From Pseudomonadota bacterium (GTDB lineage: Bacteria > Pseudomonadota > Gammaproteobacteria > CALCKW01), in the NCBI GenBank assembly GCA_039196715.1, contig JBCCUP010000020.1, forward strand, positions 1-64,000: a DNA stretch of 64,000 nt, written 5' to 3'. The translations under genes and the position numbers were made by a program. The notes under the pieces were generated by a model, which saw only the letters and a list, made by a program, of their open reading frames with translations, did not search any database and was not told where the DNA came from. How positions within the stretch are numbered: position 1 is the stretch's first letter; each line of letters starts with the position of its first letter. This document shows, in pieces, positions 9,691 to 53,098 of this stretch.

Positions 9691-9713
9691 TGACAACGGG
9701 GTGGCAGTGACCG

Positions 9714-11475: not shown

Positions 11476-11564
11476 GCCGGGGCCCGAGGGGGTTCACCCG
11501 TCATGATACGGCAACTGTGCGGTGCCGAGCGCTCGCACCCGCCCAGGGCGCGGTGACACACGAC

Positions 11565-11588: not shown

Positions 11589-11605
11589 TCGCAGGCAGTG
11601 GTGCC

Positions 11606-27881: not shown

Positions 27882-28655
27882 ATGGACAGACCGGACCGCC
27901 TCTCTGCACTGGTGTCGCGCTTTGCGCTCGATGTGCAGCCCACACCGTGCCCTGAGGCCAACCTCGTCGTCGTCGAGCACCGGTATGGGCCGGTGCGCTT
28001 GCGCGTGCTGTTCGCCCCGTCGGGCGACGCCGTTTCCGCCAGTCGGACGGCGTTGTGCGAGGGTGCGCGAACGGTGTTTTCCGCGCGCGCCTCGCTCGGC
28101 GGCGCGGGCAACCCGTTGACGCGTGCCCTGCCACCGTTGATCGAGCTGCCGATCGATGCGGACACCGAAATGCAAAGCCTGGTCAACTTGTTGGTGACCG
28201 AGAGCCGAGAGGGACGCTGCGGTGCCGGCTCGGTCGTCAACCGCCTGGGCGAGGTGCTGCTGGTGCGGCTGCTGCGCGCACTGCTGTCCGCTGGCAGCAC
28301 CGACACCGGGTTGCTCGCGGGCCTGGCGGACCCCCGGCTCTGCCATGCCATTGTCGCGATCCATGAACGTCCCGGGCACGCGTGGCGTATCGATGACCTC
28401 GCTGCCGAGGCGGGCTTGTCCACCAGCCGCTTTGCCACGCGCTTCGTCGAACTCGTCGGCCAATCGCCGATGAGTTACTTGCGTCACTGGCGCATGGTAC
28501 TCGCCCGTCAGGACATCGAACGGGGCGATCGGGTGCAGACGGTGGCGGGCCGGTACGGCTACGCCTCCACCGAAGCGCTGTCCCGCGCCTTCCGCAAGCA
28601 CTATGGCCACAACCCGCTCGCCGTGCGTGGCGCACTGCCGCAGGTGAGCGTGTGA
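27882..28655 (+). CDS. AraC-family regulator with cupin sensor, coupled to P450
   Basis: This is a 257-residue protein. An N-terminal cupin_6-type sensor (about 1-145) is followed by the AraC DNA-binding domain (about 160-250): WRIDDLAAEAGLSTSRFATRFVELVGQSPMSYLRHWRM and QTVAGRYGYASTEALSRAFRKHYG. The ATG at 27882 is preferred because an upstream in-frame TTG (27858) lies inside the palindromic operator. The stop overlaps the P450 start (GTGA), so the two genes are translationally coupled. It probably controls both this operon and the divergent peroxiredoxin. Confidence 0.87.
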   Translation: MDRPDRLSALVSRFALDVQPTPCPEANLVVVEHRYGPVRLRVLFAPSGDAVSASRTALCEGARTVFSARASLGGAGNPLTRALPPLIELPIDADTEMQSLVNLLVTESREGRCGAGSVVNRLGEVLLVRLLRALLSAGSTDTGLLAGLADPRLCHAIVAIHERPGHAWRIDDLAAEAGLSTSRFATRFVELVGQSPMSYLRHWRMVLARQDIERGDRVQTVAGRYGYASTEALSRAFRKHYGHNPLAVRGALPQVSV

Positions 28656-29863
28656 GCGCGTCTGCCACGCCGCCGGTGCCGTTTCTCGACCCGACGCGCC
28701 CGGACTTCTCCATGCGCTCGGACGCGGTGCGCGCAGCGCGTGAGCAAAGCTGGTACGCGACCACACCCTACGGTCTTGCGGTGTTGCAATACGACGCGGT
28801 CAAGGAACTCGTCAGACACCCTGCTCTGCGGCAGGGGTCCGGTCAATGGCCGGACCACAACCAGGCCGAAGGCGACTGGGCGCGCTGGTGGAAACGCAGC
28901 ATGCTGAACAAGGAAGGTGAAGACCACGCCCGCCTGCGTCGGCTCGCGCAACCCGCGTTCGCGCCGCGTCAGGTCACGGCGCTGCGGCCCCGATTCGAGC
29001 GCCTGGCCACCACGCTCATCGATGACATTGTCGACCGCGGCCGGTGCGAGTTCATGGCTGACTTTGCCGAACCCTACGCCAGTCAGATTGTTTGTGAGCT
29101 GATCGGCATCGACACCGCGCAGTGGCGCGATGTCGCTGACCACGCAATCGACATGGGCTACGCCCTGAGCGTGAACTACAAACACGACGAGGCCCGCTCG
29201 GACGCTGCGCTGAACGCGCTCATGGCCATCGCAGGCGAACTGGTCGCTGAACGGCGGCGGGTACCGGCTGACGATTTCGTTGGCAGCCTGATCACCGCGC
29301 ACGACGCACACGGTTCGCTCAGTGAGCAGGAAGTCCTCGACCTGATTGTGATCTCGATTTTCGGCGGGATCGACACGACCCGTGGCCAGATCGGTCTGGC
29401 GCTCGCCTGCTTCCTCGAGCACCCAGACCAGTGGGCGCTGCTCGGCAGCCGACCTGAACTCGCGCGCGCCGCCGTCGACGAGGTGATGCGCGTGCGGCCC
29501 ACCACCACCTGGGTGAGTCGGGAGGCGACGGTGGATTTCCGCTACCGGGACCTCGCGATAGCGGCCGGCACCACGGTACACCTCTTCGCTGCGGCCTCGG
29601 GCACCGACCCGGCGTATTTCGAGGCGGGGTTCGACATCACGGCCACGCGTAAACCACACTTTGCGTTCGGCGGCGGCAAGCACCACTGCATCGGCTCGCC
29701 GGTGGCCCGGAGTGACATGATGGTGGCTCTCACCTGCCTGTCACAACGGCTTCATGCGCCGCGCCTCGCAGGCCCGGCGCGGTGGCTACCCGACAGTGGC
29801 AACACCGGACCGCTGAGCTTGCCGATTGCGTTCGATCGCGCGTGTTTTCACAACCCACAATGA
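28652..29863 (+). CDS. cytochrome P450
   Basis: This is a 403-residue soluble bacterial P450. The haem-binding loop FAFGGGKHHCIGSPVAR has Cys346 as the iron ligand. The I-helix has FGGIDTTRGQ with the oxygen-activating Asp-Thr-Thr, and the K-helix ExxR is EVMRVRPTTTW. It would hydroxylate or epoxidise a small molecule with electrons from a ferredoxin and reductase. Neither redox partner is encoded nearby. It overlaps the araC stop by 4 bp, which suggests substrate-induced expression. The CYP family cannot be assigned by eye. Confidence 0.93.
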   Translation: MSASATPPVPFLDPTRPDFSMRSDAVRAAREQSWYATTPYGLAVLQYDAVKELVRHPALRQGSGQWPDHNQAEGDWARWWKRSMLNKEGEDHARLRRLAQPAFAPRQVTALRPRFERLATTLIDDIVDRGRCEFMADFAEPYASQIVCELIGIDTAQWRDVADHAIDMGYALSVNYKHDEARSDAALNALMAIAGELVAERRRVPADDFVGSLITAHDAHGSLSEQEVLDLIVISIFGGIDTTRGQIGLALACFLEHPDQWALLGSRPELARAAVDEVMRVRPTTTWVSREATVDFRYRDLAIAAGTTVHLFAAASGTDPAYFEAGFDITATRKPHFAFGGGKHHCIGSPVARSDMMVALTCLSQRLHAPRLAGPARWLPDSGNTGPLSLPIAFDRACFHNPQ

Positions 29864-29906
29864 GGCTCAACGGGCTGACGGTCGGCCTGTGCACAGCGCT
29901 GCCGTC

Positions 29907-30683
29907 TCAGCATTTGATTGCGCTCATGCAGTAGTAGCTCAGGGAGAAGAAAAAACGGCCACGGCGTGCGAGATCCACCTGTTCGTCGAACCAGGCCTGT
30001 GCTTCAGCGTCGGAGACGTGTCCGTTTTCCAGTGCATAGCGCGACATCAGGTGCATCAGCATGAACGCAATGCCGTCGGGCCGCAGGGTCACATCGCAGT
30101 AGGTGAAGGGCTCGATGGACACGGCCTTGAAGCCCGCGGAGCGGACCCACTCGGACCACTGTGCGGCGACGTTTGCCTCGGCGTAGTGGTGTTCCCACGC
30201 CAATTGAATGCGTCGCATCCGCGCGGTGTCCTCGCTGTACCAGTCGAGGGTGTTGCAGCCGGTGTCGACAGCGACGAAACGGCCACCCGGTCGCAAGATG
30301 CGATAGGCTTCGCGCACGGCGGATTCAATCCGTGTCAGGTACTCCAGCACCTGGACAGCAACCACCGTGTCCGCATCCTGATCGTCCAGCGGCAACGCGT
30401 CTGCTGATCCGGCAACGATGGACACGGTGGTGTGATGGCTGCACCGGTCCACGGCATGCGCCCGCATGGCGTCGCTTGGGTCAACACCGACTACGCGCCC
30501 CTGCTCGCCCACCGCCCTGGCGATCTCCTCGGTGAGTAGCCCGTTTCCACAGCCGACGTCAACCACCGTGTCGCCCACTGACAAGTGCATCGCGTCGAAA
30601 GCCATGCGTCGGCGGCGACTGACATCCGCGCCCTGGTAGGCAATTTCGAGGAGTTCGGTGGTTTTCGCGTCGAACTGCAACAT
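29907..30683 (-). CDS. class I SAM-dependent methyltransferase
   Basis: This 258-residue protein has motif I TVVDVGCGNGLLTEEIA, then VVGVDPSDAM, SADALPLDDQDADTVVAVQVLEYL and RILRPGGRFVAVDTG. This is a Methyltransf_11/25-type enzyme. The ATG at 30683 starts just before the conserved region. The methyl acceptor is unknown. It follows the desaturase gene by 16 bp on the same strand, so the two are probably one operon, and a lipid acceptor is conceivable. Confidence 0.86.
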   Translation of the reverse strand: MLQFDAKTTELLEIAYQGADVSRRRRMAFDAMHLSVGDTVVDVGCGNGLLTEEIARAVGEQGRVVGVDPSDAMRAHAVDRCSHHTTVSIVAGSADALPLDDQDADTVVAVQVLEYLTRIESAVREAYRILRPGGRFVAVDTGCNTLDWYSEDTARMRRIQLAWEHHYAEANVAAQWSEWVRSAGFKAVSIEPFTYCDVTLRPDGIAFMLMHLMSRYALENGHVSDAEAQAWFDEQVDLARRGRFFFSLSYYCMSAIKC

Positions 30684-30699
30684 CGTAGGGTGCCCCGGG

Positions 30700-31893
30700 T
30701 CAGTTGTGTGGTGTCGAGCGCAACCCGTGAGGTGCCAGGTCGCCCAGTGAAGCAAAGGCGTCACTCTCGGTGCCGGCCGTGTCCGCGTCGTGTGGCGGTG
30801 GAATCGGGGTGTCGTAGCTGTAGTTCGGATCGGTCTGTTGGCGTCGCCAGGTCTCGCGCATTTCCCGCCAGGCGCCGGTCAGGCTGCGCGGTTCGGGCAT
30901 GTCCGGGGCGAGCTCGCGCGCCAGCGCGGGCAGGTTGTAGCACGGCACATTGGCGTACATGTGGTGCTCGGTGTGCCAGTTCATGTGCCAGTAGAGGAAC
31001 GCAAGCACCGGGTTGATGCGGATCGACCGTGTGTTCTTGCGAAAGTCGGTGCTATTCTCCACAAGGCCGCAGTGCTGGGTCACACCGACGAGGTAACTGC
31101 CGATGTTGGCGGTGAACGCCGCAGTGGTCAGCAACAGCGGCACGATCCAGGCGCCGCTGAGCACCGAGACCACCAGCACCCCGCCGTGAAGCGCGAGCAG
31201 TGTGCGGGACCACAGCACCGATTGACGGCGCAGATCGGGCTGGTCGGCGTGCAGGGCCGCGAGCCACTCCTGACTCGGAGCCTCCTCGGCGCGCACCGGG
31301 CGGTCGAACGCGGCGCGAACCGTCAGGCGCACCGCACTGAAAAAGCCGCCCTTGCTGAAATTGCGCCCGGGTCGGGAGAAGAGGTTCACGGTGAGCAGCT
31401 GGACGACCAGACCGGGCCGCAGGCTCGGCGTGATGGGCAGGCGGTTCTCGCGGTCGGCTTCGGGGTGTGTGGTGTAACGGTGGTGGTAGGTGTGGCTGGC
31501 CGCGTAGTCGAACGGGTCCCACCAACTGATCGCACTGAACACGTAGAGGAAGACCCGGTTCAAGCGGCGGGACCGGAACACCGTACCGTGGCCGAGTTCG
31601 TGCGGCGCTGTGCCGGAGAAGAAACTCGCGACGAAGCCATGGCACCAGAGTGCCACCAGCATGGCCCACCACAGTTCGGCGGCCCAGCACGCCAGTGTCA
31701 ACGCGGCGGTGGTGGCAAAGAGGCTGGCATGCCCGCCCGCCTGCCACCAGCCCTGCCGGTCGCTGCGTCTCGACAGCGCCCGCAAACGCGCCGGGTCGAT
31801 CGGGCTGCGGTACCAGCGCGGTCGGAGTGTCGCCCGCACGGTGGCGAGTGGCGGGAACGACGTGCCCTGGTCAACTGGTGCCGATACGCTCAC
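30700..31893 (-). CDS. membrane fatty-acid desaturase
   Basis: This 397-residue membrane protein has the three His boxes of di-iron desaturases: HELGH (98-102), HTYHH (134-138) and HTEHH near residue 305. Hydrophobic pairs separate them, in the topology of membrane acyl desaturases and related hydroxylases. The GTG at 31893 has GGAG 8 bp upstream. It probably introduces a double bond or hydroxyl into an acyl chain. An operon with the downstream methyltransferase is likely. Confidence 0.9.
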   Translation of the reverse strand: MSVSAPVDQGTSFPPLATVRATLRPRWYRSPIDPARLRALSRRSDRQGWWQAGGHASLFATTAALTLACWAAELWWAMLVALWCHGFVASFFSGTAPHELGHGTVFRSRRLNRVFLYVFSAISWWDPFDYAASHTYHHRYTTHPEADRENRLPITPSLRPGLVVQLLTVNLFSRPGRNFSKGGFFSAVRLTVRAAFDRPVRAEEAPSQEWLAALHADQPDLRRQSVLWSRTLLALHGGVLVVSVLSGAWIVPLLLTTAAFTANIGSYLVGVTQHCGLVENSTDFRKNTRSIRINPVLAFLYWHMNWHTEHHMYANVPCYNLPALARELAPDMPEPRSLTGAWREMRETWRRQQTDPNYSYDTPIPPPHDADTAGTESDAFASLGDLAPHGLRSTPHN

Positions 31894-31974: not shown

Positions 31975-32961
31975 TCAAGTGGGGGGCTCAGTTGCACCTG
32001 TGGCCCGGGCGGGCCCGATGCGCTCGATTGTGTTGGTCCAGACGAAGCCGCCAAAGCCCGTCGGCACCCTGTCCAGGGTTGCCCTGTCGTCGATACCGCT
32101 TGAAAAGCCCGAGCCGTCGTACGGACCCCAGAGGATCAGCTCGCTGCCGGCGCGGCGCAGACGGGCCGTGAGCCGGTGTGGCCACCCCCACAGCATCGGC
32201 GCCATGTCGAGTGGAATGGCCAGCAGACGGTCGCGGCACGCCGGTGGCACCCAGCCGCTCCAGCCGACCAGCGCGTACAGGCCCCAGCAGCGTACGAGCA
32301 CCCGCTTGTCAAATCCGCGCAAGCCTGGCACTAAAGCCAATGTTGCATTCACGGGTGGCCCGCCGCCGTACACCGCAAACGCCGTGGCTGCGCCGTCGAG
32401 CGCGTTGAGGCGTTTCGCGAGCTCCCTGCCTTCGCGCGCGTCGCGGCTCTTGAGGTTGATCAGGATCCGCCCCGGGAACCGCGCGAGCACGTCGTCGAGC
32501 CGTGGCATCAGCCCGACGCCCTGCCCGCGCAGCGGAAAGGTCTCGCCGTCTGCGGTGATCCGGAAGCCGAGGTCGAGCCGTGCGAGCGCGTCGAAGCGGT
32601 GTGAACGGGTCACGCCGTGGCCGTCGGTCTGGCAGTCGAGCGTCCAGTCGTGGAAAACCGCAAACACCCCGTCCACGGTGAGGTGCACATCGACCTCGAC
32701 CACCGCCGCACCGGCCGCAAACGCGGCCTCCATCGACGGTACCGTGTTCTCGATGTAGCCGTGGGTGATGGGTTCGACCTGGCTTGCACGGCAGGTGTCG
32801 TTGCCGCGTTGCGTGCCGGTGTACACGTGGTGCACGCCCCGGTGCGCGATCAGCCGCAGAGGTGCCTCGGTGTCGACGGTGGTGAACACGCTGGTGTTGT
32901 TGAGCCAGAGCGCAGCGATCGCCGAGATACACACCACACTGGCGCGTGTGCATCGGGTCAT
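31975..32961 (-). CDS. glycerophosphodiester phosphodiesterase family protein
   Basis: This is a 328-residue protein with an N-terminal hydrophobic segment (about 6-20, a signal or anchor). The GDPD motifs are LIAHRGVHH, ENTVPSMEAAFAAGAAVVEVDVHLTVDGVFAVFHDWTLD, and a late ILWGPYDGSG. The catalytic His pair and metal-binding Glu and Asp are visible. It hydrolyses glycerophosphodiesters or related phosphodiesters, probably outside the cytoplasm. It overlaps the tetR gene by 4 bp and is the last gene of the NicX-like operon. Confidence 0.88.
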   Translation of the reverse strand: MTRCTRASVVCISAIAALWLNNTSVFTTVDTEAPLRLIAHRGVHHVYTGTQRGNDTCRASQVEPITHGYIENTVPSMEAAFAAGAAVVEVDVHLTVDGVFAVFHDWTLDCQTDGHGVTRSHRFDALARLDLGFRITADGETFPLRGQGVGLMPRLDDVLARFPGRILINLKSRDAREGRELAKRLNALDGAATAFAVYGGGPPVNATLALVPGLRGFDKRVLVRCWGLYALVGWSGWVPPACRDRLLAIPLDMAPMLWGWPHRLTARLRRAGSELILWGPYDGSGFSSGIDDRATLDRVPTGFGGFVWTNTIERIGPARATGATEPPT

Positions 32962-33641
32962 CGTGCGGGTCGCCGGCGCGCCGGACCGGCGTCGATCAGC
33001 CTGGTCAGGGTGTCCAGCGCGGGTTTCGGCTCGCGTGCGTAGGCCGTCAGGAACACCCGCAAGCCGTTGTGGATATAGCGGGCGAGCGCGCGCTCCGTGA
33101 GGCGCACCTCCGGTCGGTAGAGCGCCTGGGTACGCGGTGCGGACAGGATCAGGCCCCAGAGGTCTTCGGCGGCCAGCTCGGCGTCGTCGAACACCAAGGC
33201 GCCGGCGTCGCGTTGCGCCTGCAGGTAGTCGACCAGGCCGGCGCGCACCGTGTCCGGGCCGACCGACTGGAAGAGTGCGCCGATGCCGGGTTGCCGTGCC
33301 GCTTCGCCGATGATCAAGCGTGCGAGCGACAGCATGTCCGGCCGCAACACGGCCTTGGCGTAGCGCCAGGCGAAGGCGTGCAGCACGGTCACCGTGTCGC
33401 GCCCCTCGACCTGGCTCAGCGGTGCAAGCATGCCCTCGCGCTCGGTGTCGAGCATCGCGGTGAACAGCGCCTGCTTGTTGCCAAAGTACTGGTAGAGCGT
33501 CGGTTTGGAGACACCGGCCTCACGCGCAATGGCATCCATGCTGGCGCCGTCGTAGCCCTGATCGGCGAACACCTGCAGGGCGGCGTCGAGGATGCGCCCG
33601 GCCTTGGCTTGTCGGTTCTGCTCGCGTCGCGACACGCTCAT
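32958..33641 (-). CDS. TetR-family transcriptional regulator
   Basis: This 227-residue protein has an N-terminal TetR HTH (about 12-60: RILDAALQVFADQGYDGASMDAIAREAGVSKPTLYQYFGNKQALF) and an all-helical ligand-binding domain of the AefR type (HAFAWRYAKAVLRPDMLSLARLIIGEA). It overlaps both neighbours by 4 bp, so it is cotranscribed with the dioxygenase operon it probably represses. The A/T-rich stretch before 37281 is the candidate operator. Confidence 0.9.
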   Translation of the reverse strand: MSVSRREQNRQAKAGRILDAALQVFADQGYDGASMDAIAREAGVSKPTLYQYFGNKQALFTAMLDTEREGMLAPLSQVEGRDTVTVLHAFAWRYAKAVLRPDMLSLARLIIGEAARQPGIGALFQSVGPDTVRAGLVDYLQAQRDAGALVFDDAELAAEDLWGLILSAPRTQALYRPEVRLTERALARYIHNGLRVFLTAYAREPKPALDTLTRLIDAGPARRRPAR

Positions 33642-34918
33642 GCCGACGCGATGCCGCCGAGGAAGTCCCGAAGCTGTGCGGTGTAATCATCCGGCTGTTC
33701 GAGATTGCAGACATGGCCCGCGCCCGGCACCACCTCGAAGCGCACGCTGGCGTGCGCGGCGGCCCGCTCGATGCGGTCAGCCACACCGCGCAGCTCGTCA
33801 GGCGGCGCGAGCCGGTCGTGTTCGCCGGTCATCAGCAACACCGGCAGGTTGAGCGGCGCGAAATCGAAGCGCTCGGGCGGATTGGCAAAGCAGGTGATCG
33901 CGTCGCGGTAGCACGCCACCGAAATCGCCGCCATGGAATCGTGCAGCGCGCGCCGTGTGGCCGTGCTGGCGTGCGGACCGGCAATCAGGTCGACGACCTC
34001 GCCGGCGAAGTCGGCGGGCGTGCGGCCCGCGTCGAGCGGGGCCTGGCGGGCGCTGAGAAAACGGCCACGTTCGTCGGCGTCGGCCTCGGACAGGCCCGTG
34101 CACCCGCCCGAGAGCACGAGGCCCGCGAGCGCCTCCGGGTGTCGGTGGGCAAAGCTCGCGGCGAGCCAGGCACCGTAGGACAATCCGCAGAGCACGAGGC
34201 GCGTGCCACCGAGCGCCGCGTGCACGCGCGCGATGTCCTCGCAGTGGTCATCGACCGTGCTCTGCGCCTCACCGAGGGCACTCTCGCCGTACCCGCGCAG
34301 GTCGAGGGCGGCGCAGCGGGCCGGCAGCGGCGACAGCAGTTGCGGCTGCCAGTTGTGCCGTTGGCCGCCGATGCCGTGCAGAAAAAGGCACAGCGTGTCG
34401 CTGTCGGTGTCGTTGACCGTCACCGCCAATCGGGGCGATCCGTCGATGTGCACCGTGCGGGTCGTTGGCGGTGGGAGAGTCGCGCCAGTCTGCACAGGCG
34501 CCGGCGTGTCAGGCGCTGCCACCAACACTGCTACGCCGGCCTCGAAGACTGCGCGCGTGCCGGCCGCGATGGCCTCGACCCGATCCGGGCGGGCGTCGAT
34601 CTCGGCGCGCCACACCACGCGGCAGCCGCCCTCTGTCAGCGGTGTGACGCGGAGACTGGCGCGGTAGGCCTCGAGGCCCTCGACACCGGCCAACAGCCGG
34701 TAACGGAGGCAGCGGTCGGTGTCGCTGAACCCGCTCAGGCGTTCGCGGTAGAGGCTGTCGTCGCCGTGCACGTGAAAGGCGCGCACCGTGCCGCCCTGCT
34801 CGGCCCGGACGGTTCGGATAGCCGGGTGCCAGTCGGACACGAACTGGCGCGCCGTGCGCCAGACGCGGTCGGCGTCGAGGGCACTCTGTCCCACCACCTC
34901 CACCCGTTGGCGTGCCAC
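33638..34918 (-). CDS. SRPBCC-alpha/beta-hydrolase fusion protein
   Basis: This is a 426-residue two-domain protein. Residues about 1-140 form an SRPBCC (START-like) domain of the MxaD/polyketide-cyclase type (RVWRTARQFVSDWHPAI ... SGFSDTDRCLRYRL). Residues about 155-426 form an alpha/beta-hydrolase: LFLHGIGGQRHNW (oxyanion), LVLCGLSYGAWLA (nucleophile Ser in GLSYG), LLMTGEHDRLAPP (acid) and VPGAGHVCNLEQP (His). The complete triad predicts hydrolysis of an ester, amide or C-C bond, with the SRPBCC part perhaps holding a ring substrate. In this operon it takes the place that NicD-type deformylases hold in nicotinate catabolism. Confidence 0.88.
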   Translation of the reverse strand: MARQRVEVVGQSALDADRVWRTARQFVSDWHPAIRTVRAEQGGTVRAFHVHGDDSLYRERLSGFSDTDRCLRYRLLAGVEGLEAYRASLRVTPLTEGGCRVVWRAEIDARPDRVEAIAAGTRAVFEAGVAVLVAAPDTPAPVQTGATLPPPTTRTVHIDGSPRLAVTVNDTDSDTLCLFLHGIGGQRHNWQPQLLSPLPARCAALDLRGYGESALGEAQSTVDDHCEDIARVHAALGGTRLVLCGLSYGAWLAASFAHRHPEALAGLVLSGGCTGLSEADADERGRFLSARQAPLDAGRTPADFAGEVVDLIAGPHASTATRRALHDSMAAISVACYRDAITCFANPPERFDFAPLNLPVLLMTGEHDRLAPPDELRGVADRIERAAAHASVRFEVVPGAGHVCNLEQPDDYTAQLRDFLGGIASA

Positions 34919-34921
34919 GGC

Positions 34922-36238
34922 TCAAGCCACCGACGGGGGCAGCAGCACATCGGCGTGGCCGCGCCACAATGAATTGCGGCTGGTGTCCGGGTCGCCCGGT
35001 GCGGTGTCGAGCTCGTCCAGGTCGTAGAGCGTCAGCACCGACAGGTAGTCTTCCATGATCTCCGAGGTGTACGGCAGCATGAGCGCGCCGCACCGGCTGT
35101 CGCGGTAGATGCGCTCGAGCGGCAACGACTTCAACATCGCCTGGCCGCCACAGGTGCGGATCGCCATCGCGGCGATCTCCTGCACGCCCTCCATGACGTT
35201 GTACTGGGCCGCGTACATGCGCAGGACCTGCGCTTTCGACGGAAAGCCCCGAGCCTCCATGAACGCCTGCCACCAGAGCGCGCGCACACTCGACAAACGG
35301 GCGTACATCTGGGCCACGGCCTGGCGCTTGGTGGCGTACAGGCGGCGGTCGGCCGGTGGCTGCCCCGGTACCTCGCCACGCAGGTAGGCGACGGTTAAAT
35401 CGAACGCCGCCTGGGCCACCCCCATGTAAGTGGGCGAGAGCGTGGCCATCACGTGCGGCCAGTGTGGCAGTGTCTTGATGAAGATGCCGCGCGGCATCAT
35501 CAGGTCGTCTTCGCTGACGAACACGTCTTTGAGCACGAGGTCGCGGCTGTGGGTGCCGCGCATGCCGAGCGGATCCCAGTCGCCCTGCACCGACAGACCG
35601 GGCGCGTCCTTGGGCACGACGAAGATCATGGTGTCCTCGTGCCGGGGTTCGACGCCCTCGACGTGCTCGGTGCACACGATCGAGTAGTAGTCGCAGTGGC
35701 CCGCGAGGCTTGCGAACTTCTTGAAACCGTTGATGCGCCACCCGCCCTCGACCTTCTCGCAGCGGGTTTGCGCGGGTTTGGAGGTCCAGTTCTGCCCGGC
35801 CTCGGAGATGGGTTGCGAGTAGATGCCCTGCTCCTCCACGGCACGCCTAAACTGCCGTTCGCGCAAGGGCGCAAAAGCCGCACGTTCGGCGTCCGTCAGG
35901 TGCGGCATCTCGTACATGAACCGCGACCACATCATCGACGAGTTGTGCATGTTGAAAGTCAGGGCGGTTGCGCCGCAGTACTTGCCGATCTCCGCACCGA
36001 CCATGGCGTACTCACCGAGGCTGAAGCCGTGGCCGCCGAAGGCCTCCGGCACCGTGAGCGTCAGCAGGCCCTCGGCCGCGAGGTCACGGTAGTTGTCGAC
36101 CGGGAAGCTCGCGTCGTCGTCGATCGCCTTGGCGCGCGGCGCGAAGCGCTCCGCGCCGAGGGTGTTGATGCGCTCGAGCACGGTTTGCACGTCGGGCCGA
36201 ACGCGTGACAGGTCGTAGTAGTCCCCGATCTGGCTCAC
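34922..36238 (-). CDS. acyl-CoA-dehydrogenase-fold flavoprotein lacking the catalytic Glu
   Basis: This 438-residue protein has the full acyl-CoA dehydrogenase architecture: an N-terminal helical part, a beta domain with FKKFASLAGHCDYYSIVC and DPLGMRGTHSRDLVL, and a C-terminal helical bundle (RTCGGQAMLKSLPLERIYRDSRCGALMLPYTSEIMEDYL). Where dehydrogenases have YEGT with the alpha-proton-abstracting Glu, this protein has LPYT, so the catalytic base is missing. That loss is typical of ACAD-fold monooxygenases such as HsaA or DszC. A flavin hydroxylase is therefore as likely as a dehydrogenase. The GTG at 36238 overlaps the dioxygenase stop by 4 bp. Confidence 0.85.
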   Translation of the reverse strand: MSQIGDYYDLSRVRPDVQTVLERINTLGAERFAPRAKAIDDDASFPVDNYRDLAAEGLLTLTVPEAFGGHGFSLGEYAMVGAEIGKYCGATALTFNMHNSSMMWSRFMYEMPHLTDAERAAFAPLRERQFRRAVEEQGIYSQPISEAGQNWTSKPAQTRCEKVEGGWRINGFKKFASLAGHCDYYSIVCTEHVEGVEPRHEDTMIFVVPKDAPGLSVQGDWDPLGMRGTHSRDLVLKDVFVSEDDLMMPRGIFIKTLPHWPHVMATLSPTYMGVAQAAFDLTVAYLRGEVPGQPPADRRLYATKRQAVAQMYARLSSVRALWWQAFMEARGFPSKAQVLRMYAAQYNVMEGVQEIAAMAIRTCGGQAMLKSLPLERIYRDSRCGALMLPYTSEIMEDYLSVLTLYDLDELDTAPGDPDTSRNSLWRGHADVLLPPSVA

Positions 36239-37281
36239 GCGAGCTCTCCCTGAAGGGCGCCGTCGACCACCACGGCGGTGCCGTCGAGAGTGATCGTACA
36301 ACCGCGCATCGGCAGGTCGAAGTGCCCCTCGGTGAAACGGTCGGCGTACTGGTTTGCGCCGGTTGACCAGAGGAAGTTGCCGGCCCAGGCGCGGAACTCC
36401 ACGGCCTGCATGTCGCGCTTGTCGTACAACGCACCAGACACCCAGCGCGCGTGCGGGTTCATGCCCCAGCCGACGTGCGAGAGGCCGTAGGCTTTGGGGT
36501 CATCCCAGGCGGCCATGTACTCGCGGAACAGCTTTGCATCGAGGCCGTCGCCGCGGATGCCGGTGACAAAGTCGTCTTCAATCGTGATGTCGATCGGGCT
36601 GGCGAGGTAGGTCTTGAAGGTGAGGTTCATGTCGCCAACGTCCATGACGATCCGGCCGTTGACGGTGCCCGGTCCGGGAAAGGCCAGGCACAGGCCGCCT
36701 GGCCAGTGCGCGACATGCCCGGGCGTGGTGCCGAAACCGGGGGTGCCACCACAGGGCGCGCCGCGGACGTCGATGAGGAGGTCGGTGCCGGCGGCGGAGG
36801 TGACACGCATCTCCGACGCGGCCTTCAGCATCTCGACACCCAGCGCGACCTTCGGGCCGAGCTCGGCGCGCGGCTCGGTGCGCTCGAGGATTTCGGGGTG
36901 CTCGTTGGTCACGACCAGGATGCGCGCACCGGCTGCCTCGACTTCGGGCCACTCGGGCGAGTGGATCATGCCCTCGACGGTGCAATCGACCACCACCTCA
37001 CACTGTTTCATCGCCTCGATGGCAGCGCGGTTGTGGGCAATCGCGAGCGAGGTGCCGGTGCCTTTGACCGGCACCGGTGCGGTTTGCTCGGGCGTCGGCA
37101 TGCAGAGCATGCAGAAGTTGGCGCCAAGGTCACAGAGCGCCAGCTCGGCGAGGTGCACCAGCACCGGCCGCGACTGCGTTTCGGACACCAGTGCCACGGT
37201 GGTGCCCTGCACGATGCCGTTCAGCGTAAACACGCGTCGAAACGACGCCAGCCATTTTCCCTCGACGCGTTCCTGCAGCAC
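36235..37281 (-). CDS. NicX-like (2,5-dihydroxypyridine 5,6-dioxygenase/M29-like) protein
   Basis: This is a 348-residue protein, the length of Pseudomonas NicX (about 350). From memory of NicX, the C-terminal half aligns closely: HWPGGLCLAFPGP..NGRIVMDVGD, KAYGLSHVGWGMNPHARW and GHFDLPMRGC. The iron ligands of NicX (two His and an Asp) map to His269, His320 and Asp322, all present. NicX opens the pyridine ring of 2,5-dihydroxypyridine to N-formylmaleamate. The fold is shared with M29 aminopeptidases, but the ligands favour the dioxygenase. The GTG at 37281 with GGAG upstream is the best start. It leads a five-gene operon. Confidence 0.85.
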   Translation of the reverse strand: MLQERVEGKWLASFRRVFTLNGIVQGTTVALVSETQSRPVLVHLAELALCDLGANFCMLCMPTPEQTAPVPVKGTGTSLAIAHNRAAIEAMKQCEVVVDCTVEGMIHSPEWPEVEAAGARILVVTNEHPEILERTEPRAELGPKVALGVEMLKAASEMRVTSAAGTDLLIDVRGAPCGGTPGFGTTPGHVAHWPGGLCLAFPGPGTVNGRIVMDVGDMNLTFKTYLASPIDITIEDDFVTGIRGDGLDAKLFREYMAAWDDPKAYGLSHVGWGMNPHARWVSGALYDKRDMQAVEFRAWAGNFLWSTGANQYADRFTEGHFDLPMRGCTITLDGTAVVVDGALQGELA

Positions 37282-37295
37282 GGTCTGCGCTCCGT

Positions 37296-37321
37296 TCAAA
37301 ACTTTACTATACAGTTTAGTT
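37296..37321 (-). promoter_or_regulatory. A/T-rich promoter/operator region of the NicX-like operon
   Basis: A 26-bp A/T-rich stretch in a GC-rich setting contains an imperfect dyad, CTTTACT and AGTTTAG around TATAC. On the minus strand this gives TAAACTGTATAGTAAAG-like elements suited to a -10 box and a TetR operator, 15 bp before the GTG start. The TetR encoded in the operon is the natural candidate ligand. Confidence 0.45.
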
Positions 37322-37325
37322 AAGC

Positions 37326-37562
37326 TTGACGCCAAAGGCCCAACCCGTGGCACGCAAAGCCGTGTGCGCTGTGGCACGGATCACCGAGGTGCGTCCGACG
37401 AGGAGCGATCCCGCTCCCCTCACGCTGTCCACGCTGCGGTGCCCGGACTGCGGACACCGGGCAGACGAGACCGTGCCGACCAACGCCTGCCCGTTTTTCA
37501 CTGAGTGTGCTGGCTGTGGCACGGTGCTGATCCCCCTGCCCGACAACGGTTGCACGCGTTGA
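37326..37562 (+). CDS. small zinc-ribbon protein resembling the GDCCVxC family, lacking that motif
   Basis: Up to 78 residues, with an uncertain start (TTG at 37326 or GTG at 37347 or 37389). The end STLRCPDCGHRADETVPTNACPFFTECAGCGTVL closely matches small Cys-rich proteins whose C-terminus normally continues PKPGDCCVFCS. Here the frame ends PLPDNGCTR, so the terminal GDCC motif is missing and no other frame restores it. Four Cys in two CxxC pairs could still bind zinc. It is divergent from the NicX-like operon. Confidence 0.5.
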   Translation: MTPKAQPVARKAVCAVARITEVRPTRSDPAPLTLSTLRCPDCGHRADETVPTNACPFFTECAGCGTVLIPLPDNGCTR

Positions 37563-37698
37563 TCCTGCTGCACCGTCGCCTGTCCCGCGATTCAGGTTGC
37601 CGGGCCGACGGGCGCGACTGCGGCCTGTTGCGGGCCTGCGCCTGACGGGCATTGATACGCAGCGAGCTGACGTGAGGTTCGTCGCGCGCAACGCGGGT

Positions 37699-38219: not shown

Positions 38220-41200
38220 TCAGATCGACCGCACCCGCCGCAGGTCGGCGGTGCAGGGGTAGTCGGTGTTTTGCCGGATCACCCGGCTGCGGTGTGCGCG
38301 GCTCGGCTCGGTGCTCTGGAAGCGGGAACCGGCGTCGGCGCGCGCATGCTGGAACGCCGGGGCCGGGGTGTGCATATCGGCGTCGAAACGGGTCAATCGC
38401 CGCGTTTCGGCCACGTTCGCGTTGACCGGCTTGTCCTCGAAGTTTCGCCCGCCCGGGTCGCTCACGTGGTAGGCGCAGCCGCCGAGGCTGCGGTCGTTCC
38501 AGGTGTCGATCAGGTCGAATACCAGCGGCACATCCACCGGCAGGTCCGGGTGCAGGCAGAATGGCGGCTGCCAGGCCCGGTAGCGCACACCCACGACGTA
38601 TTCGCCAGGTGTGCCGGTGTTGACCAGTGGCAGCTCGTAGCCGTTGCAGGTGACGATGTGGCGCGACGCGGTCAGGCCGCTGACGCGCAACTGCAGGCGT
38701 TCGACCGAGGAGTCGACGTAGCGTGACATGCCGCTGGCGGTCGCCTCCTCGCCGAGCACGTGCCAGGGCTCGATGGCCGCGCGCAGCTGCAGCTGCACAT
38801 CGCCGATTGCGCGCTCGCCGTAGACCGGAAAGCGAAATTCGAAAAAGGCGTCGAGCCAGCTCGCGTCGAAGGCGTAGCCGTGGGTGTTGAGGTCGGCAAC
38901 GACGTCTTCGAGGTCCCGCCAGAGGTAGTGCGGCAGCATGAACCTGTCGTGCAACTCCGTCCCCCAGCGCACCAGCTCACCGGTGTAGGGCGCATTCCAG
39001 AAGCGGCTGATCAGGCAGCGGATCAGCAGCGCCTGTACCACGCTCATTCGCGCGTGCGGTGGCATCTCGAAGGCACGCAGCTCGACGATGCCCAGGCGAC
39101 CCGTCGGCCCGCTGGGCGCGTACAGTTTGTCGATGCAGATTTCAGCGCGGTGGGTGTTGCCGGTCAGGTCCACCAGCATGTTGCGCAACAGCCGGTCGAC
39201 CAGCCACGGCGTGTCGCTCTCGCCCCGCGGAAGGCGGGCGAGCGCCATCTCAAGCTCGTACAGCGTCTCGCTGCGTGCTTCGTCCGCGCGCGGTGCCTGG
39301 CTGGTCGGACCGACGAACAGGCCCGAGAACAGGTACGACAGGCTCGGGTGGTGCTGCCAGTAGCGGATCACGCTGCCGAGCAGGTCCGGTCGACGCAGGA
39401 ACGGACTGTCTGCTGGGGTCAGGCCACCGAGGGTCACGTGGTTGCCACCGCCTGTGCCGGTGTGTCGGCCGTCGACGTTGAACTTTTCGGCAGCGAGTTT
39501 GCAGTGCGCAGCGGCGTCGTACAGCGTCTCGGTACGCGCGACCAGCTCGTCAAACGACACCGAGGGGTGGATGTTGACTTCGATCACACCGGGGTCGGGC
39601 GTGATGCGAAAGGACGTCAAACGGGCGTCGTGTGGCGGCTCATAGCCTTCGATCACGCACGGCGTGCCGGTGCGCGCGACCGCGTGTTCCAGCGCGCACA
39701 TGAGGTCCAGCCAGTGCGCGGCGGACGTGACCGGTGGCAGGAACACGTACAGCGTGTCGTCGCGCACTTCGGCAACCAGCGTGGTGCGGATCACACCGCC
39801 GGCCTCGGTTGTGCCGCCCTCATCAGCGGCGTCGTGGCGCTGTGCGAGCGTGTTGTAGCCGGGCAGTGCGTCGCCCCAGTAGATCGGGTCCTCGGGCACC
39901 TGGCGGGCCTCGCGGTCGACGGCGGTGTCGGGCGGCAGCGAGTCGAGCGGTAGCCGCATGCCGGCGGGCGAGTCACCCGGAATCAGGAAGACTTCGTCAC
40001 GGCGCAACGGCCAGCGTTGGCTCACCCAGCGCTGGCCGGTGTGCTCGAGCGGGAGGATCCAGCCAACCGGCGCGTCGAGGCCCCGATCGATCTGCCGCAC
40101 CGTCTCGGCGCGCGCGTCCGGGTCCGAGAGCGTGAGATCGCGCAGTGCGGTCTCGACCGGTAACAGGGACTCGAGGTGCACGTGGTGCAGCGGGTCTTCA
40201 TACACCGCCCGCGCACAACCGGCATCGAGCCCGAGCTGCGTGCACAAGCCTTTCACCACCTGCTCGGCATCCGCAGGGGTGGCCCCGCCCTGCCCCGGGC
40301 GTGCGAGCCGCGTCGGGTCGCGCCAGATCGGTTCGCCGTCGCGACGCCAGTGGCAGATCATGGCCCAGCGCGGCGTCGGTTCGCCCGGGTACCACTTGCC
40401 TTGGGCGAAGGCCGTGACACCCGCCGGTGCGAACGCCGTGCGCAGGCGCGCCATCAGTGCCGCAGCGCGCTCGGTTTTGTGTTCGCCGAGTGCCGCTTCG
40501 TTCCACTCGGGGCTCTCGAGGTTCTCCGTGGAGACGAAGGTCGGCTCGCCGCCCATGCTCAGGCGCACGTCGTCCTCCGAGAGCTGGCGGTCGACCCGCT
40601 CGCCGAGTGCGAGCACGTCGGCCCAGACGGCGTCGGTGTAGGGCTTGGTCACGCGCGGGCGTTCGTCAAAACGGGACACCCGGTTGTGAAAATAAAAGTC
40701 GTCTGCCGCGGCGCTCGCGGCGCCCGAGATCGGTGCTGCACTCGACGGTTGCGGGGTGCACGCCAGCGGGATGTGCCCTTCCCCGGCGAAGAGGCCCGAG
40801 GTCGGGTCCAGGCCCACCCAACCGGCGCCCGGCAGGTAGGCTTCGACCCAGGCGTGCAGGTCGGTGAAGTCCGCTGCTGCACCCACCGGGCCGTCGATCG
40901 CCTTGATGTCCGGGGTGAGCTGCACCAGGTAGCCTGATACGAAGCGCGCGGCAATGCCGTAGTGCCGCAGGATCTCGACCAGCAGCCAACTGCTGTCGCG
41001 GCAGGACCCACTCGCCTTGCGCAGGGTGTCCTCGGAGGACTGTACGCCGGGCTCCATGCGCACGTTGTACGTGATGTCGCGTTGGACGGCCTGATTGATT
41101 TCGACCAGCGCGTCGATCACCTTGCGGCGGTCCGGGCGATTCGCTTTCAACCAGGCGTGCAATCTGGGCCCGGCAGGCTCGACATCGCGGTACGGCGCGA

Positions 41201-41540
41201 CCTCGTCCAGCGTGCTCGCGTCGTAGTCGAAGGGGAACTGCTCGGCGCTGTCCTCGACAAAGAAATCGAAGGGGTTGATCACGTCGAGACGGGCAACGAG
41301 GTCGACCGTGACCGTCAACTCACGGCAGGGTTCCGGGAACACCAGCCGTGCGAGGTAGTTCCCGAACGGGTCCTGCTGCCAGTTGATGAAATGCGCCGCG
41401 GGCGTCACGTTGAGGCTGTAGCTCAGGATCGGTGTGCGGCAATGCGCGGCGGGCTTCAGCCGGATGATGTGGGGACCGAGCGTAACGGGTTTGTCGTAGC
41501 GGTAGGTCGTGGTGTGGTCGAGCGCGACCTTGATGCTCAT
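38220..41540 (-). CDS. transglutaminase-like/DUF2126 two-domain protein
   Basis: This is an 1106-residue protein. An N-terminal bacterial transglutaminase beta domain (1-100) and a transglutaminase-like cysteine protease core follow, with Cys180 (GSCRDSS), His229 (DLHAWVEA) and Asp245 (GLDPTSG), a complete triad. From about 290 to the end is DUF2126, with repeated ..MGGEPTFVS and the HTGTGGGNHVTLGG motif; this part resembles glutamate-cysteine-ligase/amidoligase-like folds. It would cut or transfer an isopeptide-type bond. It overlaps the Alpha-E gene by 4 bp and belongs to the five-gene amidoligase locus. Confidence 0.9.
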   Translation of the reverse strand: MSIKVALDHTTTYRYDKPVTLGPHIIRLKPAAHCRTPILSYSLNVTPAAHFINWQQDPFGNYLARLVFPEPCRELTVTVDLVARLDVINPFDFFVEDSAEQFPFDYDASTLDEVAPYRDVEPAGPRLHAWLKANRPDRRKVIDALVEINQAVQRDITYNVRMEPGVQSSEDTLRKASGSCRDSSWLLVEILRHYGIAARFVSGYLVQLTPDIKAIDGPVGAAADFTDLHAWVEAYLPGAGWVGLDPTSGLFAGEGHIPLACTPQPSSAAPISGAASAAADDFYFHNRVSRFDERPRVTKPYTDAVWADVLALGERVDRQLSEDDVRLSMGGEPTFVSTENLESPEWNEAALGEHKTERAAALMARLRTAFAPAGVTAFAQGKWYPGEPTPRWAMICHWRRDGEPIWRDPTRLARPGQGGATPADAEQVVKGLCTQLGLDAGCARAVYEDPLHHVHLESLLPVETALRDLTLSDPDARAETVRQIDRGLDAPVGWILPLEHTGQRWVSQRWPLRRDEVFLIPGDSPAGMRLPLDSLPPDTAVDREARQVPEDPIYWGDALPGYNTLAQRHDAADEGGTTEAGGVIRTTLVAEVRDDTLYVFLPPVTSAAHWLDLMCALEHAVARTGTPCVIEGYEPPHDARLTSFRITPDPGVIEVNIHPSVSFDELVARTETLYDAAAHCKLAAEKFNVDGRHTGTGGGNHVTLGGLTPADSPFLRRPDLLGSVIRYWQHHPSLSYLFSGLFVGPTSQAPRADEARSETLYELEMALARLPRGESDTPWLVDRLLRNMLVDLTGNTHRAEICIDKLYAPSGPTGRLGIVELRAFEMPPHARMSVVQALLIRCLISRFWNAPYTGELVRWGTELHDRFMLPHYLWRDLEDVVADLNTHGYAFDASWLDAFFEFRFPVYGERAIGDVQLQLRAAIEPWHVLGEEATASGMSRYVDSSVERLQLRVSGLTASRHIVTCNGYELPLVNTGTPGEYVVGVRYRAWQPPFCLHPDLPVDVPLVFDLIDTWNDRSLGGCAYHVSDPGGRNFEDKPVNANVAETRRLTRFDADMHTPAPAFQHARADAGSRFQSTEPSRAHRSRVIRQNTDYPCTADLRRVRSI

Positions 41541-42487
41541 GCGGTCTCCGGAACCGGCGGAAAGTAGGCTCGCGTGATCGCGTCGCCGATGTCGAGCAGA
41601 TCACTCTGGACCGCGTCGAGAAAGCGGTGCCGTGCTAGGGCGTCGGCTGCCAGGGCGTCGGTGTCGACAGCGTCGATGCGCGCGTGCAGCGACGCCACGA
41701 GCGCGCGCGCGTCGTCGTGGTTGGGAAAGTGCTCGAGACAGCGGTCGAGCCGAACCAGACAAAACAGGCAGGCCGCCGGCAATTGCGCGTCCTTGAGCAG
41801 GAAGTCGAGGCAGCCGGTCGCGTTGACCGGTTGCCGCACGTGCCGGCGGTACATCTGCATGGCCGACACCGAGCGCAGCGCGGCCATCCAGTCGCGGTGG
41901 TCGTTCGAGGCAAAGTCGGTGTCACCGTCCGGTGTGGTCACACTCTTTGGCACATCGAGCACCCGGGTGGTCATGTCGGCGCGCTCGAGGTAGCAGGCCA
42001 TGCGGGTGAAGCGGTAGGCCTGATCGTGACGCAGGCTGCCGTGGATAGCCCCCGAGATTTCGAGCACCTGCCGTTCGATCGCCTCGAGGACCTGGCGGCG
42101 GTTGGCCAGCGTTACGCCCTGCTCGCAGGCGCTGCGCACGTAGCGCACCAGGGTGCTGATACGCTGGTAGAGCTGTTTCGGAAACACGTCGCGCGCACTG
42201 CGCAGGTTGTTGCGGATGGCAATCGACGCGTTGATGATCGAGCCCGGGTTACGCTCGTCGGCGACCAGAAAGGTGGTGACATCCTGGGCACTGGCCTCGG
42301 CGTAGTGCTTGAGGTAGAGCGCGTCGAGGCCAGTGATCGAGATCAGCGGCATCCAGCCGTCGTGCGACTGCACGTCGGGCAGGTCCATCAGCGAGCGGCT
42401 GTAGACGTTGATCAGCCGCGCGGAGTTTTCGATTCGCTCGAGGTAGCGACTCAGCCAGTAGACGTTCTCTGCAACGCGGGACAGCAT
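41537..42487 (-). CDS. Alpha-E domain protein
   Basis: This 316-residue all-helical protein begins MLSRVAENVYWLSRYLERIENSARLINVY, the highly conserved Alpha-E start, followed by NPGSIINASIAIRNNLRSARD and a Tyr/Arg-rich helix YRFTRMACYLERADMTTRVL. Its biochemical role is unknown. It always occurs with circularly permuted ATP-grasp and transglutaminase genes, as here, so it probably completes or positions the ligase. It lies in the middle of the operon. Confidence 0.92.
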   Translation of the reverse strand: MLSRVAENVYWLSRYLERIENSARLINVYSRSLMDLPDVQSHDGWMPLISITGLDALYLKHYAEASAQDVTTFLVADERNPGSIINASIAIRNNLRSARDVFPKQLYQRISTLVRYVRSACEQGVTLANRRQVLEAIERQVLEISGAIHGSLRHDQAYRFTRMACYLERADMTTRVLDVPKSVTTPDGDTDFASNDHRDWMAALRSVSAMQMYRRHVRQPVNATGCLDFLLKDAQLPAACLFCLVRLDRCLEHFPNHDDARALVASLHARIDAVDTDALAADALARHRFLDAVQSDLLDIGDAITRAYFPPVPETA

Positions 42488-42523
42488 GGGCTCAGACTCG
42501 TGCCGAGGTGGGTTCGGGTCGCG

Positions 42524-43993
42524 TCACGACGGCGCACCCTCGACGCCGTCCTCGACGATCCAGGTGTCCTTGCTGCCGCCGCCCTGCGAGGAGTTCACCA
42601 CCAGGGACCCGGGCACCAGGGCGACGCGGGTCAAGCCGCCGGTGGTGACGGTGATGTCATCGCCCTGCAAGACGAAAGGCCGGAGGTCGACGTGGCGCGC
42701 GGCCAGGCTCAAGGGGTCCTCGCCGCCCCCGCACAGGGTCGGCGAGGTCGAGATCGACAGAGTCGGCTGGGCGATGTAATTGCGCGGGTTGGCGCGGATG
42801 TTGTCGGCCATCGCCGCCTGCTGCTCGGCGGTGCTGTGCGGGCCGATCAGCATGCCGTAGCCACCGGATTCGTTGGCGGGCTTGACCACCAGCGCGTCGA
42901 GGTTGTCCAGCACATGCGCCAAGCTGTCCGGGTCGCTGCACCGGTAGGTCGGGACGTTGGCGAGCGTCGGTGTCTCGTTCAGGTAATAACGGATGATGTC
43001 CGGCACGTAGGAGTACACGACCTTGTCGTCGGCGACGCCGGCACCCGGCGCGTTGGCGATCGCCACGTTGCCGGCGCGCCAGGCGTCCATGAGGCCGGCC
43101 ACGCCGAGCTTCGAATCGGGGTTGAAGCAGCTCGGGTCGAGGAAGGCGTCGTCGACGCGGCGGTAGAGCACGTCGACCTTGATCAGGCCGTTGACGTCGC
43201 GCATGTAGACGGTGTCGTCCTGCACCACGAGGTCGCGGCCCTCGACCAGTTCCGCGCCGATCTCCTGGGCGAGAAACGCGTGTTCAAAATAGGCCGAGTT
43301 GAACACCCCGGGGGTCAGCACGCAGAGCGTCGGGTTGGGCACCGGGCTGAGCGAGGCCAGCATGCGCCGCAGGTTGCTGGTGTAGTTGTCGACCGGGCGC
43401 ACCCGACAACGGCTGAACAACTCCGGCACCGTGCGTTTCATGATCTCGCGGTTCTCGATCATGTAGGACACGCCCGACGGCACGCGCAGGTTGTCTTCGA
43501 GCACGTAGACCGTGCCGTCCTTGTCGCGCACCAGATCGCTGCCGCAGATGTGCGCCCACACGCTGTGCGGCGGGGTCAGCCCGAGGCATTCAGGTCGAAA
43601 ATTGGTAGACGTTTCAATCAGGTCGCGCGGCACCACGCCGTCGTTGAAAATTGCCTGTTCGTTGTAGACGTCATGGATGAAGCAATTGAGCGCACGGATG
43701 CGCTGTTTCAGTCCGGCTTCGACCGCGCGCCATTCTCGGTCACTGATGATGCGCGGGATGATGTCGAAGGGCCACTCACGGTCGATGTTGCCCTTGTCGG
43801 AGTACACCGTGAAGGTGATACCCATCTGCTGGATGGCAAGTTCTGCGGCGTCACGACGTTGGATCAGTGCGTCGTCGTCGAGGTCGTCGAGCCAGCTGGC
43901 GACGTCGGTGGCGAAGTCGCGCGCTGACCCATTTTGGTGCATCAGCTCGTCGTGACAGGGACTGGTGTAATCACGCCATCGACTGCTGTGCAT
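42524..43993 (-). CDS. circularly permuted type 2 ATP-grasp protein
   Basis: This 489-residue protein has PFDIIPRIISDREWRAVEAGLKQRIRALNCFIHDVY (conserved N-terminal block), HICGSDLVRDKDGTVYVLEDNLRVPSGVSYMIENRE (nucleotide/Mg site), and NVAIANAPGAGVADDKVVYSYVPDIIRYYL. The order of ATP-grasp lobes is permuted. It should catalyse ATP-dependent amide bond formation between a carboxylate and an amine; substrates are unknown. AGGGAC precedes the ATG at 43993. It is 36 bp upstream of the Alpha-E gene. Confidence 0.92.
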   Translation of the reverse strand: MHSSRWRDYTSPCHDELMHQNGSARDFATDVASWLDDLDDDALIQRRDAAELAIQQMGITFTVYSDKGNIDREWPFDIIPRIISDREWRAVEAGLKQRIRALNCFIHDVYNEQAIFNDGVVPRDLIETSTNFRPECLGLTPPHSVWAHICGSDLVRDKDGTVYVLEDNLRVPSGVSYMIENREIMKRTVPELFSRCRVRPVDNYTSNLRRMLASLSPVPNPTLCVLTPGVFNSAYFEHAFLAQEIGAELVEGRDLVVQDDTVYMRDVNGLIKVDVLYRRVDDAFLDPSCFNPDSKLGVAGLMDAWRAGNVAIANAPGAGVADDKVVYSYVPDIIRYYLNETPTLANVPTYRCSDPDSLAHVLDNLDALVVKPANESGGYGMLIGPHSTAEQQAAMADNIRANPRNYIAQPTLSISTSPTLCGGGEDPLSLAARHVDLRPFVLQGDDITVTTGGLTRVALVPGSLVVNSSQGGGSKDTWIVEDGVEGAPS

Positions 43994-44003
43994 CAGGGGT
44001 CCC

Positions 44004-52549: not shown

Positions 52550-53089
52550 ATGATCAAAGCACGCACGCTGCAAGACCTCTTCAGACGCTATCGCCGGCCA
52601 GGCGACCTGGTGTTTGGCTTGGCGTTTCTCGTCTTTGCCGTCTTCATCGTCTACTCGCTGCCCACCGAGGCCACGTTGTCCGGCCGCGGCAGCCTGTTTG
52701 CAAAACCGGCCTTCTATGTGCACGTGGCGGCCTACGCGATGCTGTTGTTTGCGGTGCTCCACGTGTTCAGCAGCCTGGTGTCCGAGGCACTCGAAGGCCG
52801 CTGGCGCGAGGTCTGGCTCTGGCTGCGCTCGATCGAATACGCCGTGTGGTTTCTCGCCTACGTTGTCATCGCGCCGGTGCTGGGTTACTTGCTTGCGACC
52901 CTGGTGTTCACGCTGAGCCTGACGGTCCGGCTCGGCTACCGCTCCCGCAGGGCACTGGCGCTGACCGCGTTCTTCTCGGTGTGTGTCGTGGTGGTGTTCA
53001 AGAGCTTTTTGCAGGTCAAGGTGCCCGGCGGGCAGCTCTACGAATACCTGCCATCGGCGCTGCGCACCCTCATGCTCACCTACTTCTGA
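52550..53089 (+). CDS. tctB: TctB-family tripartite tricarboxylate transporter small subunit
   Basis: This 179-residue protein has four hydrophobic segments (LVFGLAFLVFAVFIVYSL, FYVHVAAYAMLLFAVLHVF, LAYVVIAPVLGYLLATLVFTLSL and ALTAFFSVCVVVVF), the TctB topology. TctB and TctA form the membrane part of a TTT transporter, which needs a periplasmic TctC receptor; no tctC gene is in this window. GGAGGGG precedes the ATG at 52550. It is followed by tctA after 9 bp. Confidence 0.85.
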   Translation: MIKARTLQDLFRRYRRPGDLVFGLAFLVFAVFIVYSLPTEATLSGRGSLFAKPAFYVHVAAYAMLLFAVLHVFSSLVSEALEGRWREVWLWLRSIEYAVWFLAYVVIAPVLGYLLATLVFTLSLTVRLGYRSRRALALTAFFSVCVVVVFKSFLQVKVPGGQLYEYLPSALRTLMLTYF

Positions 53090-53098
53090 GGCCGATCG

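Follow-up and report, generated by a model that had tools for sequence, protein, structure and literature searches.

A conserved operon built around a NicX-like dioxygenase suggests a catabolic route for an N-heteroaromatic compound other than 2,5-dihydroxypyridine

What might be degraded by an operon that joins a relative of the ring-cleaving dioxygenase NicX to partners from outside the nicotinate pathway? The question is raised by five genes in the window, by which we mean the whole stretch of DNA that was analyzed (64,000 nucleotides of a gammaproteobacterial contig, JBCCUP010000020.1). The genes lie on the minus strand, from position 37281 down to 31975, and encode a NicX-like protein, a flavoprotein of the ACAD fold, an SRPBCC-hydrolase fusion, a TetR regulator and a GDPD phosphodiesterase. 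Successive genes overlap or nearly touch (gaps of -4, +3, -4 and -4 nt). The closest public relative is on a contig named uncultured Granulosicoccaceae, the NicX-like protein of which is 90% identical, and the unit is present in at least 80 other bacterial species. Across 80 related loci, NicX is found in 80, ACAD in 79, the SRPBCC-hydrolase in 76 and TetR in 70. The first four genes form an operon, and the GDPD gene (31975..32961, minus strand) is outside the conserved unit. The initial annotation had counted the SRPBCC-hydrolase fusion, TetR and the phosphodiesterase as partners of the dioxygenase. The first two are real domains and are conserved at the frequencies given above. Despite a 4-nt overlap with TetR in the window, the GDPD gene was found beside the unit in none of the 80 related loci; not being conserved with the unit, it was rejected as part of the pathway and is probably a bystander.

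The NicX-like protein (36235..37281, minus strand; 348 aa, GTG start) is about 35% identical to NicX. A phmmer search matched one solved structure, NicX 7cn3 (E 3.8e-56, 194 bits), and in a profile search of the PDB NicX was the sole match with E below 0.6. The AlphaFold model (pLDDT 89) superposes on NicX at Z 44.3 over 340 residues, versus Z 20-22 on M29 peptidases. Comparison against NicX and M29 enzymes, as proposed at the outset, places the protein with NicX (Z 44 versus 22), and an identity as an M29 aminopeptidase was rejected on the structural scores, the PDB profile result and the lack of a Pfam match. Canonical NicX also has no Pfam match.

Iron in NicX is bound via His265, Ser302, His318 and Asp320, the last of which is positioned by Arg293 (PMC7910607). 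In the window protein His269, His320 and Asp322, the pattern recognized in the initial annotation, align with His265, His318 and Asp320. The fourth ligand, which had been missed, is also kept: Ser306 aligns with Ser302, as does Arg297 with Arg293. We compared these residues in an alignment that comprised 84 proteins of clade A, 15 of clade B and 7 canonical ones (the clades are described below). The ligands and Arg293 are kept throughout with one exception, a clade A protein (1 of 84) that has Val at the position of Asp320. His105 and His189 of NicX are kept as well.

The substrate pocket is different. In NicX the pair Glu177-His189 holds the pyridone by its N and O, and 2.7% of activity is left in a Glu177 alanine mutant (PMC7910607). 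Glu177 is present in 7/7 canonical sequences and is replaced in all 99 sequences of clades A and B, while His189 is kept. The replacement is Thr in 84/84 clade A proteins (Thr180 in the window) and Val, Ile or Asn in clade B. At other positions in the two clades, Val or Leu replaces Trp187, Ala in most cases replaces Asp188, and Tyr, Phe or Val replaces Glu308; the window protein has Val, Ala and Tyr, respectively. Since the iron site and fold are kept and the pocket residues are altered, the chemistry is likely retained and the substrate changed. Assignment of the protein to the Fe(II) ring-cleavage class is well supported.

In a phylogenetic tree, clades A and B group together, apart from canonical NicX, with 100/100 support. 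The tree includes only seven canonical rows and has flagged long branches, and the split holds for A and B jointly, with B not established as a clade of its own. The window protein belongs to clade A, and the same genome carries one A and one B copy. The B copy (genome G000, contig C56, L083:7361-12934) consists of genes for a NicX-like protein, a hydrolase, an ACAD and an AMP-ligase, with a divergent flavin reductase-MarR fusion.

Gene neighborhoods differ among the groups. Canonical loci have nicD, nicE, nicF and usually a nicC-like gene. Clade B loci have a hydrolase without SRPBCC, an ACAD and an AMP-ligase, and in many of them there is also a MarR-domain flavin reductase. Clade A loci have the ACAD, SRPBCC-hydrolase and TetR genes and usually a glutamine-synthetase-like (GS) gene, a flavin reductase and an APC permease. 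A gentisate-dioxygenase-like (GDO-like) gene with a FAH gene is upstream in 29 of 60 well-flanked clade A loci; its product scores under the cut-off for gentisate dioxygenase and also under that for 5-aminosalicylate dioxygenase. The nicC/nicD/nicE/nicF set, present beside canonical NicX, was not seen beside clades A or B. Membership in a nic cluster is ruled out by these neighborhoods, the pocket residues and the tree split, and the distinction from the nicotinate pathway drawn earlier stands, with ACAD and hydrolase in place of nicC and nicD.

A monocyclic pyridine might nevertheless be the substrate. The ACAD would then hydroxylate a hydroxy- or carboxypyridine, the NicX-like enzyme would cleave a variant of dihydroxypyridine, its pocket fitting a differently substituted ring, and the hydrolase would be a deformylase of the NicD type. 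The NicX fold with its full iron site, the retention of His105 and His189, and a hydrolase adjoining NicX as in nic clusters are all consistent with this. We nonetheless consider it unlikely, given that Glu177 is absent from 84/84 clade A and 15/15 clade B proteins, that nicE/nicF-like maleamate genes are found beside neither clade, and that the linked aminobenzoyl-CoA genes described below would be left unexplained.

Hosts of clade A include marine Rhodobacteraceae, SAR116, many soil rhizobia and others. The marine hosts bring to mind N-methylpyridinium compounds such as homarine, and an N-methylated ring would be compatible with the loss of Glu177, which binds the N-H of the ring. Cleavage of homarine at the 5,6 bond followed by deformylation would give N-methyl dehydroglutamate, which could be reduced to N-methylglutamate; the ACAD would be the reductase or a hydroxylase. 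Mgd is reported to take part in homarine catabolism, according to the mention of a 2026 paper on the subject in PMC13390433. Such a role for the operon is improbable in view of the many soil rhizobia among the hosts and the aminobenzoyl-CoA linkage, which it does not explain. Also, in a sample of 385 Alphaproteobacteria, the matches include no genome under 2.5 Mb.

The ACAD-fold flavoprotein (34922..36238, minus strand; 438 aa) follows. The ORF list gives 34922-36301, owing to an upstream TTG start, and we used the shorter form. Where dehydrogenases have '(E)GTSEI' the window protein reads 'LMLPYTSEI', with no Glu at the catalytic place. This agrees with the initial annotation and extends to both clades: in the consensus drawn from 84 clade A and 14 clade B proteins, Glu is missing from the corresponding place near the C-terminus. 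The best sequence-profile matches are 5gj7 and 5z8t, the latter titled a flavin-containing monooxygenase, and ACAD-like proteins that oxidize indole are known (PMC6221969). Flavin reductases occur in 61 of 80 clade A loci and, as the fusion with MarR, in clade B; none is beside the unit in the window. Two loci, L194 and L195 (in each around 9000-13000), carry another NicX-like variant together with a hydrolase and a YciI-like protein, and there a class A FAD-dependent aromatic hydroxylase replaces the ACAD. The missing Glu, the monooxygenase match, the flavin reductases and this swap favor a hydroxylase role. Structure alone does not decide, as comparison gives Z 38 for dehydrogenases and Z 37.5 for monooxygenases and does not separate the two. 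We conclude that the protein is probably a two-component aromatic hydroxylase, and a dehydrogenase or CoA-ester role is kept as a rival only.

The third gene (33638..34918, minus strand) encodes an SRPBCC domain fused to an alpha/beta hydrolase. Its triad (Ser247-Asp368-His402) is conserved in relatives, and its similarity to NicD is weak and local. PcaD-type lactonases are among the best family matches. No HOD/QDO-type cofactor-free dioxygenase is among the 60 PDB matches listed. The protein is probably an N-formyl (amide) hydrolase.

These features leave room for a route through CoA thioesters, in which the ACAD would act on a CoA thioester, the NicX-like enzyme would cleave a CoA-bound or non-heterocyclic aromatic, and the hydrolase would be a thioesterase or, as the PcaD-type matches might suggest, a lactonase. 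The AMP/CoA-ligase adjoining the ACAD in clade B is in keeping with this, and tropone biosynthesis is known to involve a flavoprotein dioxygenase that acts on a CoA ester (PMC8283759). Clade A units, including that of the window, have no ligase, however, and at one clade B locus (L188) the ligase is directly followed by an aminobenzoyl-CoA enzyme, an order that suits a role after ring cleavage. We regard this route as quite improbable.

The fourth gene (32958..33641, minus strand) encodes a TetR/AefR-type protein, probably the regulator of the operon. In several loci the hydrolase gene is fused in frame to TetR, giving about 650 aa (L073:3917-5935, L079:3661-5661, L082:4502-6439, L148:11849-13810, and probably also L101:937-1944 and beyond). 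The domains were checked in L079 and L148, and the fusion joins an enzyme to its likely regulator. A promoter and a TetR operator would be expected in the intergenic region 5' of the NicX-like gene (37282..37698). It contains just one weak inverted repeat (37458-37467 / 37484-37493), which was set aside as a candidate operator; no close upstream sequence was found for footprinting.

The surroundings of the operon include several other gene sets. Genes for a P450, a methyltransferase and a fatty acid desaturase adjoin it (28652-31893). On the other side, at 38220-47476, there are two adjoining sets of genes which, judged by eye from their sequences, are transglutaminase-like, alpha-E and ATP-grasp-like; they may represent a duplicated cluster. 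TctB/TctA-like transporter genes occur with an aldehyde dehydrogenase and an aminotransferase at 52550-57407, and this TctA resembles the TctA near some clade A units.

In relatives, one neighbor of the unit is an aromatic monooxygenase fused to an old-yellow-enzyme domain, which we take to be a 2-aminobenzoyl-CoA monooxygenase/reductase, as in the Azoarcus enzyme. The 2-aminobenzoyl-CoA (anthranilate) route is known for Azoarcus evansii. At L188 the genes run on one strand in the order NicX, hydrolase, ACAD, AMP-ligase, monooxygenase/reductase, SDR, MarR, enoyl-CoA hydratase (ECH) and then ACAD gene(s), with a 2-nt gap between the ligase and the monooxygenase/reductase. The latter has 765 residues and scores 1290 bits against NF006101 (cut-off 1078), which NCBI names salicylyl-CoA 5-hydroxylase/oxidoreductase. 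In four bacterial families, one with clade A (f105) and three with clade B (f98, f56 and f213), the distance between this gene and the unit is 0-15 kb; for clade A such physical linkage is seen in two genomes, both from a single f105 genus.

Co-occurrence in genomes extends beyond the linked loci. Based on counts made by hand, the monooxygenase/reductase is present in 36 of 43 genomes with clade A or B, compared to 6 of 22 with neither (Fisher p 1.6e-5, relatedness ignored); for genomes that carry canonical NicX alone, the figure is 8 of 15. Within f105 it is found in 10 of 13 clade A genomes versus 59 of 182 without A or B (p 0.002, relatedness again ignored). Of 40 additional hosts of clade A, 37 have it. 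Beyond the linked loci, the association could come from a shared lifestyle. The window's own genome (96% complete) contains no full-length monooxygenase/reductase, no GDO, no close GS and no anthranilate 1,2-dioxygenase over the cut-off.

Carboxylate transporters (TRAP, TTT or ABC systems) are near several copies of the unit and seem to import carboxylates, which favors a carboxylated precursor and disfavors plain indole. At another locus a tryptophan 2,3-dioxygenase-like gene, recognized by eye (L193:16997-18112), follows a clade B unit and a TRAP transporter.

Taken together, we tentatively propose that the operon encodes the central enzymes of a route that degrades an N-heteroaromatic compound other than 2,5-dihydroxypyridine, most plausibly a benzo-fused one of the indole type, by way of anthranilate or a hydroxylated relative. 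Each reaction, substrate and product is one that we infer. The ACAD-fold flavoprotein, supplied with reduced flavin by a separate reductase, would hydroxylate the ring carbon beside the N-bearing CH. Using O2, the NicX-like Fe(II) enzyme would then split HO-C=CH-N, leaving a carboxylate and an N-formyl amine. NicX acts on the same type of bond at C5-C6, converting HO-C5=C6H-N into a carboxylate plus an N-formyl group (PMC7910607). In indoxyl, HO-C3=C2H-N has the same arrangement as this target of NicX; cleavage would give N-formylanthranilate, from which a NicD-like hydrolase would release anthranilate. Such a model joins the altered pocket, the hydrolase and the aminobenzoyl-CoA neighbors. 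The SRPBCC-hydrolase would take off the formyl group as NicD does, leaving anthranilate or its hydroxylated relative, and TetR would repress the operon until the substrate or an intermediate appears. In relatives the product could enter the 2-aminobenzoyl-CoA route or perhaps, at roughly half the well-flanked loci of clade A, a GDO-like/FAH route. The initial suggestion of a new route for an N-heterocycle or other aromatic thus holds in that a different substrate is likely, Glu177 being gone; the neighborhoods redirect it from a dihydroxypyridine to an indole-like ring and anthranilate.

Several observations weigh against the indole-type route. The clade B AMP-ligase could act earlier, the hydrolase resembles NicD weakly, the ACAD fits dehydrogenases equally by structure, and the window's own genome lacks any anthranilate sink that we could find.

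A more specific version, somewhat unlikely as a whole, is that of a pathway, widespread and so far undescribed, in which the enzyme opens a hydroxylated indole-type ring to N-formylanthranilate; the ring might be indoxyl, formed by hydroxylation of indole or by decarboxylating hydroxylation of indole-3-carboxylate. Where clade A loci have the GDO-like, CN-hydrolase and FAH genes, 5-hydroxyanthranilate (2-amino-5-hydroxybenzoate) might be cleaved by the GDO-like enzyme to a maleamyl-type amide, then deamidated and split. The amide left by such cleavage would give a role to the CN-hydrolase and FAH genes, which would be possible genes of an anthranilate-to-gentisate-type route. According to a 2018 review, gentisate has been seen during indole degradation, with genes unknown (PMC6221969).

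We found no description of the NicX-like/ACAD/SRPBCC-hydrolase gene set in the open literature; subscription papers were mostly outside this search, so this is weak evidence of novelty. In public plasmid records, annotated clade A genes are named 'peptidase M29' (plasmid hits H3-H6; L092 and L093), so that a ring-cleaving pathway may be hidden under a wrong name. The candidate pathway is spread over marine Rhodobacteraceae, SAR116, rhizobia and others, and several hosts are cultured strains. If our reading is true, NicX chemistry reaches beyond pyridines to benzo-fused N-heterocycles, and testable genes become available for the gap that separates indole-type compounds from anthranilate in environmental bacteria.

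Comparison with known systems places the operon between several of them. With NicX of Pseudomonas putida KT2440 (PDB 7cn3, 7cup), a 2,5-dihydroxypyridine 5,6-dioxygenase that forms N-formylmaleamate, the window protein shares the fold, the four Fe(II) ligands, Arg293, His105 and His189, but it differs in pocket residues, belongs to its own clade and is partnered by ACAD and SRPBCC-hydrolase instead of NicC, NicD, NicE and NicF. Like the nic-type nicotinate and hydroxypyridine clusters, the operon combines a NicX-family dioxygenase with a putative hydroxylase and an alpha/beta hydrolase, whereas this hydroxylase is of another family, its hydrolase is SRPBCC-fused, and maleamate amidase and maleate isomerase are lacking. 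The 2-aminobenzoyl-CoA route, which also serves in indole degradation by Cupriavidus, is a downstream module there and is fed in published indole clusters (iifA, iifB, iifC and iifD) via iif/ind genes, with no NicX-like enzyme (PMC6221969). Its monooxygenase/reductase, with SDR, ECH and ACAD genes, lies beside our unit in four families. Finally, the ACAD-fold flavin monooxygenases (PDB 5z8t, DszC/TdsC, and IacA and other indole-oxidizing ACAD-like proteins), compared via 5gj7 and 5z8t, share with the window protein an ACAD fold without the catalytic Glu, while the window protein falls in a family of its own, marked by the motif RTCGGQ...SRCGALMLP.
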